Source: Actomonas aquatica
GTDB lineage: Bacteria > Verrucomicrobiota > Verrucomicrobiia > Opitutales > Opitutaceae
Assembly (NCBI RefSeq): GCF_019679435.2
Contig: NZ_CP139781.1
Span: 3,877,753-3,941,752 of the forward strand
Reading direction: 5' to 3'
Length of the DNA: 64,000 nt
Shown: positions 4,885-21,504 of the stretch, in pieces
Layout: every line of letters starts with the position of its first letter
Numbering within the stretch: position 1 is the stretch's first letter
The notes under the pieces: generated by a model
What the model was told of the DNA's origin: nothing
Databases searched by the model: none
Seen by the model: only the letters and a program-made list of their open reading frames with translations
Translations under genes and position numbers: made by a program

Positions 4885-5139
4885 TTACTTCTTCTTGGCA
4901 GCGGCCTTCTTGGCCGGGGCCTTCTTAGCAACCTTCTTAGCCGGAGCCTTCTTAGCGGGTGCCGGTTTGGCAGCGGCCTTCTTGGCCGGAGCCTTTTTGG
5001 CAGCCTTCTTGGCCGGCGCCTTCTTAGCAACGGCCTTCTTAGCCGGGGCCTTCTTGGCGGGGGCCTTCTTGGCCGGGGCTTTCTTCGCCGGTGCCTTCTT
5101 GGCAGCGGCCTTCTTCACCGTCTTCTTGGCTTTAGCCAT
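4885..5139 (-). CDS. Histone H1-like lysine/alanine/proline-rich DNA-binding protein
   Basis: An 84-aa protein made almost wholly of [15 protein letters not shown] repeats after a short [10 protein letters not shown] start. This is the composition of eukaryotic H1 C-terminal tails and bacterial H1-like (Hc1/AlgP-type) nucleoid proteins, which bind DNA non-specifically through lysines. A strong ribosome-binding site, AAGGAG, lies about 7 bases before the ATG (CTCCTT at 5147-5152 on the + strand), and a perfect terminator follows, so it is a well-expressed single gene. The repeated GCCTTCTTGGCC-like DNA is simply the coding repeat. A similar tail recurs on the antitoxin at 21016. Confidence 0.92.
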
Positions 5140-18259: not shown

Positions 18260-20341
18260 ATGAAAGCCCAGGACCTCCAATTCACCCAACTGCTGGAAGG
18301 CTCCAAGCAGTTCATCATTCCCATCTTTCAGCGCACCTACAGTTGGGAGTTGGCGCATTGTCAGCAGCTCTGGAACGACATAGTTCGAGTCGGACGCAGT
18401 GCTGAACTCAACAGCCACTTCATCGGCTCCGCCGTCTACATTCCCGAAACCAATGTCGACGCCGCCATTCCGCGATGGCTGGTTATCGATGGCCAGCAGC
18501 GTATCACGACCATGACGCTGTTTCTGATCGCTTTGAAGCGTCGCTTGGAGGCGGGGGGAATGGATGATCCCGTTTCCGCAGCGCAGGTGGAGGACCTCTA
18601 CCTGCGCAATCGTTATGGCAAGGGCGAGGCGGCTTATCGACTGTTGCTCACGCGCACCGATAAGGAAACGCTCATTCAATTGATCGACGGCAAGGAGCCA
18701 CCAGAGGAGGAAGGGTCCCTCCGGATCATCGAGAATTTTCGTTTCTTCACGTCTCAGCTGGCCAGCGTCGATGTGGGCGAGGTCTGGAAGGGAATCAAGA
18801 AGCTCATGATCGTGGATGTCTGCCTACAGCAAGGGATCGACAATCCGCAGATGATCTTCGAGAGCATGAACTCGACCGGGAAGGCGCTGACTCAGGCGGA
18901 CCTGATCCGGAATTTCGTGCTCATGGGGCTAGCCCATGAACACCAAACCCGTCTCTACACCGACTATTGGCGCCCCATGGAGGTGGAGTTCGGCGCGGTG
19001 AACTACATCAACGAATTCGACGAGTTTATGCGCTACTACCTCGTCATTCATACCGGCAATGTGCGGATCCGTCGGGGGGATGTGTATGACGAGTTCAAGG
19101 GCTACTCCCGGAAGCATGAGGTTGAACCGTTGCTCGAATCCCTGAGGGAGTTCGCCGGTTACTACTGCCGCATCGCCTTGGGCACCGAGAAGGATGCCGC
19201 TCTCGCTGCGGCGTTTCACGACATCCGCGAGCTGCGAGCCGATGTCTGCTACCCCATGCTGATGGAGCTGTATCAGGATTTTCGGCACGATCGCCTCTCG
19301 CACGATGAGTTTGTCGAGGTGGTGCGTATGGTCGAAAGCTATGTCTTCCGGCGGGCGGTTTGCGATATCCCCACCAACTCGCTGCGCCAAACCTTCGCGA
19401 CGTTTACGCGGCGGGTGAAAAAAGACCGCTACGTCGAGAGCGTTAAAGCGGCGTTTCTGCTCTTACCGTCCTACCGTCGGCTGCCGACCGACGCCGAGTT
19501 CATCCGTCAGATCCAAGTGCGCAACCTCTACAAGTTTAATCGCCGGTCCTACTGGCTGCGGCGGTTTGAAAACCACGGACGCAAGGAACGCGTGCAAGTC
19601 CAGGACTATACTATCGAACACATTATGCCCCAGAACGAGGACTTGAACGCCCAATGGCGAGCAGATCTCGGGGAGGAATGGCAGCGGATTCACACGCAAT
19701 ATTTGCACACCTTGGGGAACCTGACGCTCACCGGTTACAACTCGGAATACAGCGACCGTTCTTTCCCCGAAAAGCGCGATATGGAAGGTGGATTCAGGTA
19801 TAGCCCTCTGAAGTTGAATCAAGGTCTGGGTTCTTGCGAAATCTGGAACGAGTCCGCGATCCAAGAGCGGGCAAAGCGACTGGCTGAAATTGCGGCAGAA
19901 ATCTGGCAGGCGCCGAAGCTTTGGCAGGACCTTTTGGAGGCCTACAAACCGGCTCCCCCCAAGGGAGCTAACTACTCTATCGCAGATCACCCGAATCTGG
20001 CCGGGGGGATAACCCGGGAACTCTTCGAAGCGTTCCGCAAGGAGGTGTTGGCATTGGATGAGTGTGTCACCGAGGAATTCCTCAAGCTCTACGTCGCCTA
20101 TAAGGCCGAAACAAATTTTGTGGATATTGTGCCACAGTCGAAGGGGCTTCGACTCAGCTTGAATCTGCCGTTCCCGGAAATCGACGACCCCCGCAAACTT
20201 TGTCGCGATGTGACCGATCTCGGGCGTTGGGGCAACGGAGACGTCGAGGTCCGGTTAGAACGGATGGAGGATCTCGCCTACGTTGTCGGCCTGGCACGAC
20301 AAGCATTGGAACGACAACTGGGTGACGAGCCGGCAGAGTGA
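18260..20341 (+). CDS. GmrSD-type restriction endonuclease (DUF262-DUF1524, with C-terminal DUF5655-like domain)
   Basis: A 693-aa protein. The N-terminal DUF262 domain has PIFQRTYSWE and Asp77 in VIDGQQRITTMTLFLIAL, the (D/E)GQQR nucleotide-binding motif of GmrS-like NTPases. The DUF1524 nuclease part has DYTIEHIMPQNEDLN with the His-Me-finger histidine at 454 and the downstream LGNLTLTGYNSEYSDRSF. The last about 100 residues (FVDIVPQSKGLRLSLNLPFP ... DLGRWGNGDVEVRLE) resemble the DUF5655 domain. Type IV enzymes of this family cut phage DNA carrying modified bases. The stop overlaps the start of the RES toxin gene by GTGA, so the two are translationally coupled. Confidence 0.92.
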   Translation: MKAQDLQFTQLLEGSKQFIIPIFQRTYSWELAHCQQLWNDIVRVGRSAELNSHFIGSAVYIPETNVDAAIPRWLVIDGQQRITTMTLFLIALKRRLEAGGMDDPVSAAQVEDLYLRNRYGKGEAAYRLLLTRTDKETLIQLIDGKEPPEEEGSLRIIENFRFFTSQLASVDVGEVWKGIKKLMIVDVCLQQGIDNPQMIFESMNSTGKALTQADLIRNFVLMGLAHEHQTRLYTDYWRPMEVEFGAVNYINEFDEFMRYYLVIHTGNVRIRRGDVYDEFKGYSRKHEVEPLLESLREFAGYYCRIALGTEKDAALAAAFHDIRELRADVCYPMLMELYQDFRHDRLSHDEFVEVVRMVESYVFRRAVCDIPTNSLRQTFATFTRRVKKDRYVESVKAAFLLLPSYRRLPTDAEFIRQIQVRNLYKFNRRSYWLRRFENHGRKERVQVQDYTIEHIMPQNEDLNAQWRADLGEEWQRIHTQYLHTLGNLTLTGYNSEYSDRSFPEKRDMEGGFRYSPLKLNQGLGSCEIWNESAIQERAKRLAEIAAEIWQAPKLWQDLLEAYKPAPPKGANYSIADHPNLAGGITRELFEAFRKEVLALDECVTEEFLKLYVAYKAETNFVDIVPQSKGLRLSLNLPFPEIDDPRKLCRDVTDLGRWGNGDVEVRLERMEDLAYVVGLARQALERQLGDEPAE

Positions 20342-20952
20342 AAAGCTATTCAGTGAAATCACTTTCACCGCATCCCCAGTTCAGTCGGCTCAAGCGAGAG
20401 TTGCGAAAGATCGCGCCCCAGCACGCGGAAGCTTGGGAGCGCCCAGTTTTTCGCTGTGTGGAGCCCAAGTGGGCTCATCCGAAGTATCTGATCGCGGGTG
20501 TGGGAACGCGGATTCACGGGAGCCGTTGGATGCCTCGCGGAGTCGCTTCCGCAGTCTACGCGGCATCGACCGAAGCCATTGCGCTGAAGGAAGCGCGGCA
20601 CAACTTCAGTCGCTACGGCATTCAACCGCGTCAGAAGCCGCGGGTCTTGGTTGAGGTCGACCTGCGATTGAGTGCAGTCGTGGCCCTGCCCGCTTTGGTT
20701 GAAGCGCTGCCTGGCATCGTCTTGGCTGAACTATTGGCCGAGTCTTGGGAGGCGGTGAACGACCGGGACTCCGAGTCACTTTCCCAAGCCTTGGGTCGCT
20801 GTCTTTGGGATCTTGGTTACGAAGGACTGCGGGTGACTTCGGCCCGGGATGCCAGAGGGCAAAACCTGGTTTGGTTTCCTGACCGTCTACGCCCGGGGAG
20901 CTCAGCCTCGATCTGCGGGGAAGAAGAACTCAACCGTTGGATCGCAACCTGA
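20338..20952 (+). CDS. RES-domain toxin (NAD+-targeting family)
   Basis: A 204-aa protein of the RES family, toxins that degrade NAD+ or ADP-ribosylate targets using conserved Arg, Glu and Ser. The order is visible: Arg in PVFRCVEPKWA, the GTRIHGSRWMPRGVASAVYA core (G-x-RW-x-P-G), Glu in IALKEARHNFSRYG and Ser in LRVTSARDARGQNLVWFPD. The GTG start lies inside the stop of the GmrSD-type gene (GTGA overlap), so its translation depends on the restriction gene. An Xre-like antitoxin follows. In most RES-Xre modules the antitoxin comes first; here the toxin does. An N-terminal extension of about 30 residues precedes the domain. Confidence 0.9.
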   Translation: MKSYSVKSLSPHPQFSRLKRELRKIAPQHAEAWERPVFRCVEPKWAHPKYLIAGVGTRIHGSRWMPRGVASAVYAASTEAIALKEARHNFSRYGIQPRQKPRVLVEVDLRLSAVVALPALVEALPGIVLAELLAESWEAVNDRDSESLSQALGRCLWDLGYEGLRVTSARDARGQNLVWFPDRLRPGSSASICGEEELNRWIAT

Positions 20953-20969
20953 CATGCAGAAGTGCATGT
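20952..20969. promoter_or_regulatory. Palindrome between toxin and antitoxin genes, candidate operator
   Basis: ACATGCA-GAAG-TGCATGT, a perfect 7-bp inverted repeat with a 4-base spacer, sits right at the toxin stop and 46 bases before the antitoxin ATG. Xre-type antitoxins commonly repress their own operons by binding such palindromes. Its position implies that the antitoxin may have its own regulated promoter here. Confidence 0.5.
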
Positions 20970-21015: not shown

Positions 21016-21504
21016 ATGAAAACCAAGAAAGCAGTCAAGAAGGCGACGACGAAGCGGGCCATGACCAAGACTCCCGTGAAAAAGGCGGTTAAGAAGGCCA
21101 TCGCCAAGAAAGCAGCGGCCAAGGTTCGCGGCGCTCCAATGGCATTGAGCGGCGACTACGCGCTTGGGCCTTCCCGCGTCGATACCTTCGCGGTGAAGGA
21201 ATTCTGCCAACGCTTTCAGATGGTTCGACCGGACCTCACGCGCCTCACTGGTTTTTCGCTGCGGTCGGTCGACAAATGGGCGGCCGGCGAGGAACCGGGC
21301 AACCCCGCCAAGAAGCAGCTGAAGGAATTGGTGCGTCTCTTCGATGCCCTCGCCGAGCTGATGGAATCGAAAGATGTCGGCCCCTGGCTCAAGGCTCCCA
21401 ATCCTGCCTTTGCGCAATCAACGCCTTTGCAGATCATCGAGCGGGGCGAGATCGACCGTATCTGGCGCATGATATATCAGCTCGAAACCGGCGAGCCGGC
21501 ATGA
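21016..21504 (+). CDS. Xre/MbcA-like antitoxin with histone-H1-like N-terminal tail
   Basis: A 162-aa protein. The first about 45 residues are a lysine/alanine tail (MKTKKAVKKATTKRAMTKTP, then KKAVKKAIAKKAAAK), like the H1-like protein at 4885. The rest matches the Xre/COG5642 antitoxin layout: an N-terminal helix-turn-helix (FCQRFQMVRPDLTRLTGFSL, RSVDKWAAGEEP) and a C-terminal toxin-binding part with LMESKDVGPWLKAPNPAF and the end ERGEIDRIWRMIYQLETGEP. That last part matches the 'W...PN.F....P...' pattern of RES-neutralising antitoxins. It would neutralise the RES toxin encoded 63 bp upstream. The tail is unusual for this family and could hold the antitoxin on DNA. The frame opens at 20962 but the ATG at 21016 fits best. 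Confidence 0.82.
   Translation: MKTKKAVKKATTKRAMTKTPVKKAVKKAIAKKAAAKVRGAPMALSGDYALGPSRVDTFAVKEFCQRFQMVRPDLTRLTGFSLRSVDKWAAGEEPGNPAKKQLKELVRLFDALAELMESKDVGPWLKAPNPAFAQSTPLQIIERGEIDRIWRMIYQLETGEPA

Follow-up and report, generated by a model that had tools for sequence, protein, structure and literature searches.

The stretch of DNA analysed here (the window) comprises 64,000 nucleotides, positions 3877753-3941752, of the 6.1 Mb single-contig genome of Actomonas aquatica. It contains a RES gene followed by a gene for an antitoxin with a lysine-rich N-terminus, and the features of this region are as follows.

18260-20341, GmrSD-type restriction gene (PADLOC Orf5, 2.4e-192), its stop overlapping the GTG start of the RES gene
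20338..20952, plus strand, RES toxin gene (204 aa) ahead of the antitoxin gene, with a GTG start and an alternative GTG at 20353
20949..20954, plus strand, possible -35 box CTGACA, weak, overlapping the RES stop and with no convincing -10
20952..20969, plus strand, palindrome ACATGCAgaagTGCATGT, candidate operator at the RES stop, upstream of the antitoxin start
21016-21504, plus strand, antitoxin open reading frame, ATG to TGA, 162 aa
21016..21183, plus strand, N-terminal arm (residues 1-56), predicted to be disordered and K/A-rich across residues 1-40
21184..21501, plus strand, folded part (residues 57-162), predicted HTH and toxin-binding domain

The AlphaFold2 model of the antitoxin, built on an alignment of 46 sequences, had pLDDT values per ten-residue block of 90-96 for residues 61-160 and 44-64 for residues 1-60. 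No helices were predicted before residue 60 and the predicted HTH comprised helices 60-67, 71-78 and 82-89, placing a disordered arm directly ahead of the HTH. In a Foldseek search, the best PDB match of the folded part was MbcA (6fkg_C, E-value 1.7e-4), followed by NatR, VPA0769 and the P. putida Xre protein, and the HigA2 HTH (8a0x) was also among the matches (E-value 0.3, probability 0.99). The antitoxin matched MbcA by phmmer as well (1.2e-7), and its profile scores lay under the cut-offs of PF09722 (21.9 bits; cut-off 24.5) and NF049845 (28.3; cut-off 90). The preceding gene product matched Pfam RES (PF08808) with an E-value of 7.2e-17 and scored 24.7 bits against NF049844, under the cut-off of 110. 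Its AlphaFold2 model (mean pLDDT 93.8) resembled MbcT (6fkg, 2.8e-10) and ParT (6d0i, 6.6e-7) in Foldseek, with NatT and the P. putida RES protein also matching. Residues R39, E85 and S168, candidates for the catalytic R, E and S, were invariant in all 30 aligned RES sequences. By these predicted folds, the pair shares the RES and Xre/MbcA/ParS architecture of MbcTA, ParST, P. putida Xre-RES, NatRT and VPA0770-0769. It differs from these known RES-Xre modules in having the toxin gene first, a palindrome between toxin and antitoxin and a basic disordered arm, and both proteins fall under the NCBIfam subfamily cut-offs.

To place the pair among its relatives, an alignment of the antitoxin folded part was run against the species-genome collection, which yielded 55 loci; the locus scan first requires one of two core-derived peptide patterns and therefore captures close relatives only. 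Matches occurred in 25 of 252 genomes of the taxonomic family and in 21 of 387 phylum-sampled genomes, the window's own counted. All loci belong by record label to Verrucomicrobiota, save L094 and L096 ('bacterium') and L090 (Blastochloris), the last of which is probably a mislabelled bin because it sits deep inside the tree. Elsewhere in the genus, one of seven genomes (G001) gave a match, a 37-residue, 150-bp remnant (L047 6999-7148) that is 74% identical to the 3' end of the antitoxin gene, indicating that the module is patchy. A single-sequence scan of the genome-contig collection with the RES protein gave no match, and a scan of viral contigs with the antitoxin-core alignment gave zero matches; plasmids yielded 18 records, with Xre/MbcA/ParS-type antitoxins at about 27-40% identity. 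Locus L106, a 17-residue match, was set aside, leaving 54 loci for analysis.

The gene order in this Verrucomicrobiota family is inverted, with the toxin first. A RES gene lay upstream on the same strand in 45 of the 54 loci (the match at L059 being partial), no RES match was found in the other nine, and the best RES match was downstream in none. By comparison, among the non-family PF09722 matches in the phylum, RES was downstream in 21/21 with a RES frame (two of them resting on weak E-values of about 0.002), five having no such frame. natR-natT likewise has the antitoxin first, as against the toxin-first window pair. We treated the antitoxin-first order as typical, rather than defining, for RES-Xre modules. 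A first-pass annotation of the window had described a normal RES-type antitoxin; the adjacent RES gene and the MbcA-like fold bear out the RES type, while the toxin-first order does not fit the word normal. Toxin-first systems occur elsewhere, HigBA being named among them (PMC6929052). In the open-licence PMC text consulted, we found no description of RES-Xre pairs with inverted order or of RES-Xre antitoxins bearing a lysine-rich arm. As for the neighbouring GmrSD-type gene, a conserved link was considered and dropped: with flanks of up to 2.5 kb, one of the 54 loci (L064) has a GmrSD-like gene, which is 25% identical and lies on the other side, downstream of the pair.

The K/A-repeat tail reported by the first-pass annotation is real. 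Residues 1-40 contain 14 K (a fraction of 0.35), 2 R, 10 A and zero D/E; the net charge is +15 for the arm (residues 1-56) and 0 for the remainder, so that the positive charge comes from the arm. Two copies of KKAVKKA occur in the arm, and by eye their codons differ at 5/7 places while encoding the same amino acids. As a DNA pattern, KKAxKKA had 3 matches in the 6.1 Mb genome, two in the antitoxin gene and one in the gene at 4885-5139; 100 shuffled versions of the window gave none. The looser KKAxxKKA had 24 genome matches at about 10 places, so K/A tracts are not in themselves rare in this genome. The gene at 4885-5139, on the minus strand, encodes a small H1-like protein with KKAPAKKA repeats, which matches HC2 at 9.2e-7, under the cut-off. 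The antitoxin itself gave no match to the HC2 profile at E-values up to 1, so that an H1 domain is not supported for its tail. Searched against the rest of the genome, the tail DNA gave nine other short weak matches, none inside the H1-like gene, and so gave no sign that the tail was recently copied from that gene.

Whether the arm is translated depends on the start codon. GC3 was 0.73 over antitoxin codons 1-45, 0.74 over the later codons and 0.52 in the same frame upstream, consistent with coding from M1. In the relatives L054 and L097, codons 1-60 contain no ATG/GTG/TTG apart from M1, and L053 has one further start-capable codon there, codon 54, within the HTH. Having no alternative start ahead of the HTH, these three genes must encode the arm if the protein is made at all. 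Judging from these reading frames, an internal start, one of the objections anticipated for the tail, appears unlikely, although M16 and M42 are formally possible starts of the window antitoxin.

We then compared the N-termini across the family. The arm set consisted of 45 loci plus the window, 45 of them distinct by their first 25 residues. It left out L058 (without an ATG-started arm), L071 (identical to L069), L104 (cut by a contig end) and the fragments L096, L100-L103 and L105. Antitoxin starts were assigned by rule as the first ATG lying 19 nt or more past the RES stop; those of L052, L077, L080, L087 (GTG), L088 and L093 were set manually. As a charge control we used 17 of the 26 non-family PF09722 matches (from 30 loci), with starts set by eye; L141, L155, L167 and L169 were left out for an unclear start or frame, and L157, L158, L161, L164 and L168 because RES was not found. 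The first 20 residues were net positive in 44 of the 45 distinct family antitoxins, with a mean charge of +4.64 and a lowest value of 0 (L063). In contrast, the 17 Xre-first antitoxins of the phylum had a mean of -0.47, four being positive and 13 at or below 0; adding the lysine-rich L167 by hand brought this mean to about -0.1. Eight weaker relatives averaged +1.12, and 110 control ORFs taken mechanically from the same DNA averaged +0.65. Mann-Whitney p values of the family against the Xre-first antitoxins, weaker relatives and control ORFs were 1.6e-8, 8e-5 and 1e-16, respectively, all of which are too small because the rows are related. Outside the family, the Xre-first antitoxin at L167 (970-1653), from elsewhere in the phylum, has a lysine-rich N-terminus (MTDKIKTTKSKKAV...); basic arms therefore arose more than once or are more widely spread, and are not exclusive to this family.

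The length and letters of the arm were not conserved in this way. Arm length ranged from 8 to 56 residues, clustered on the tree, and 33 of the 45 family arms in the tree set were shorter than 35 residues. At least three KKA/AKK/KAK motifs in the first 60 residues were seen only in the window antitoxin and in L053 of Cerasicoccus frondis, its tree sister (96/85 support), both of which begin MKTK. By path length L052 is nearer to the window antitoxin, and it has a basic arm of other letters. Among homologues, then, the tail is not absent but recurs as positive charge, and the window tail is, judging by its sequence, the longest and most lysine/alanine-rich form of a family-wide basic arm rather than a unique fusion. 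Substitutions were counted over the first 16 codons in 10 pairs drawn from five close loci. In the six pairs with silent arm changes, pN was 0.08-0.11 in the arm and 0.00-0.02 in the body; arm pS in these countable pairs was 0.32, which puts pN/pS below 1. In three of the other four pairs, all arm changes altered the amino acid.

The palindrome ACATGCAgaagTGCATGT occurs once in the genome, even when 1 mismatch is allowed. Of 44 distinct family regions, 33 had its core, TGCA-N4-TGCA, no more than 60 nt from the RES stop, where shuffling predicts 0.015 such regions; the other 11 lacked the exact core, several of them holding near versions by eye. A terminator scan also lists the palindrome (7 pairs, 3 of them G-C, with a weak T run), and its conserved letters favour a protein site over a terminator. 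The RES-first order and, judged by eye, a palindrome are also present in L048-L050, three weaker relatives that lack a basic arm, suggesting that the arm is not required for an operator. In 18 of 43 regions the palindrome was located between the -35 and -10 of the top-scoring promoter-like match, as in TTGACA-N17-TATTAT at L081 and L093; in 14 of these 18, the RES stop codon ends 3 or 4 bases after the -35 begins. At the position of the window's CTGACA, relatives such as L081, L083 and L094 have TTGACA. Promoter scores reached p <=0.05 against shuffles in 10 of the 43 regions; neither the window (p 0.38) nor L052-L056, the relatives nearest to it, scored above shuffles (p 0.36-0.87 overall), and a consensus promoter scan of the window region found no promoter. 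Part of the family thus probably transcribes the antitoxin gene from a separate promoter that the antitoxin itself represses, and by analogy the same may hold for the window antitoxin.

These features suggest how the module could work. The gene pair would be an inverted type II RES-Xre toxin-antitoxin module, in which the C-terminal domain of the folded part of the antitoxin would neutralise RES while its HTH binds the palindrome at 20952-20969 and shuts down transcription of its own gene. The disordered polycationic arm would lie along the DNA beside the HTH-bound operator and raise affinity electrostatically, so that its composition would count more than its letters; in Actomonas aquatica, the arm would have lengthened and drifted to KKA repeats. 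We consider it somewhat more probable than otherwise that the antitoxin represses its own promoter from the palindrome with the arm strengthening DNA binding, which we infer to be the best explanation of a polycationic disordered arm, an XRE-type HTH and an operator-like palindrome occurring together. Several observations weaken this reading: the palindrome and RES-first order of L048-L050, which have no basic arm; the spread of arm lengths and the zero charge of L063; the 11 regions without an exact core and the window promoter scores; the positive N-termini in 4 of 17 Xre-first antitoxins and in L167; and K/A tails on proteins not known to bind DNA.

Arms ahead of an HTH have precedents. The arm of phage lambda repressor contains lysines and is about 6 residues long, compared with about 56 in the window antitoxin. 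It precedes the HTH and contacts DNA (PMC5575656). A closer parallel is HigA2, the HTH-XRE antitoxin of V. cholerae, which likewise carries a disordered arm, predicted in our case, ahead of its HTH; without this N-terminal region, operator affinity was reported to be more than 15-fold lower and repression was gone, the operator being a perfect 7-bp inverted repeat (PMC11006873). The toxin of HigBA2 is an mRNase, whereas the window toxin is a RES protein; the HigA2 arm also binds its toxin, whereas here the C-terminal domain would be expected to do so. In addition, the HigA2 arm is sequence-dependent while the family arm varies freely, which also weakens the arm-assisted reading. In P. putida Xre-RES, a palindromic operator adjoins the antitoxin gene (PMC12204516), as the candidate operator does here. 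If the arm acts like that of HigA2, disordered arms would tune autorepression in two toxin-antitoxin families with unlike toxins, here by a composition-driven mechanism, unlike in HigA2; affinity could then be determined as a function of arm charge along the natural series of arms of 8 to 56 residues. In any case, the family adds a Verrucomicrobiota branch to RES-Xre systems, with inverted order, a candidate operator at the toxin stop codon that lies inside a promoter-like match in part of the family, and a basic arm kept in charge rather than in letters.

The first-pass annotation had proposed that the tail binds DNA anywhere, like histone H1, and parks the antitoxin with its bound RES on the chromosome. 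In composition the arm, with its K fraction of 0.35, does resemble the H1-like protein of the window and the PAKK/KAAK tail that mycobacterial HupB is reported to require for nucleoid association (PMC5676037). The likeness to HupB and HC2 lies in the K/A repeats; unlike in these proteins, the tail here is N-terminal, on a regulator predicted to be sequence-specific and without an HC2 profile match. Most family arms are shorter than 35 residues, repeats of this kind are mostly confined to the window antitoxin and L053, and such tails also occur on CTP synthase and thymidylate kinase in the same genome. Moreover, with a palindrome next to the gene that occurs once in the genome, specific binding to an operator is a simpler role than a nucleoid tether. 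Contact of the tail with DNA seems likely on inference, and a general tether we regard as unlikely, if worth bearing in mind. Neutral drift, in which the segment before the HTH is unconstrained and the lineage fills such ends with K/A repeats, would account for arms changing faster than the body in close loci and for KKAxxKKA turning up on several unrelated enzymes, including a thymidylate kinase tail found in one genus genome. Nevertheless, charge is kept in 44 of 45 antitoxins while letters change, arm pN/pS is below 1 in the six countable pairs, and the KKAVKKA copies differ at 5/7 codons with amino acids unchanged; we hold drift of the whole arm to be rather unlikely.

Antitoxins are turned over by proteases, and an arm predicted to be disordered could be a protease entry point that sets the half-life of the antitoxin. 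The arm conserves charge only and no sequence, however, and we find a proteolysis signal very improbable. The arm might also contact the toxin and aid neutralisation, as do the charged surfaces of NatR-NatT, where acidic Flap residues of the toxin are reported to bind positive antitoxin residues (PMC11535050). Against this, the RES protein of the window carries a net charge of +7, and over 36 pairs no anticorrelation was seen between the charges of arm and RES (Spearman +0.28, p 0.09), which makes such a contact hardly credible. Finally, the K/A tail in the genus could serve as a common address label by which unlike proteins are kept on the nucleoid or RNA, namely the RES antitoxin, CTP synthase, RsfS, a DksA/TraR-type protein and, here, thymidylate kinase; the antitoxin would thereby hold a silenced RES on the chromosome, to be released on disturbance. 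We judge this label quite improbable.

As to these other tails, a lysine-rich C-terminus of CTP synthase was present in 8/8 genus genomes, with different letters in each, and the K/A tail of thymidylate kinase in 1/8, that of Actomonas aquatica only (loci L195-L202, L205-L212, L171 and L192). K/A tails were also seen on a DksA/TraR zinc-finger protein (N-terminal), an RHH protein, RsfS and one protein without a Pfam match (loci L173, L174, L179 and L193). Because CTP synthase, thymidylate kinase and RsfS bear such tails too, the K/A style is habitual in this genome and does not single out DNA-binding proteins; the KKA letters, recurring on several unlike proteins, may be drift atop a conserved basic arm. 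A further observation concerns the segment between arm and HTH: the window's clade goes without it, and one other clade (loci such as L075-L094) carries a conserved FRFxHRGAxDY at this position.
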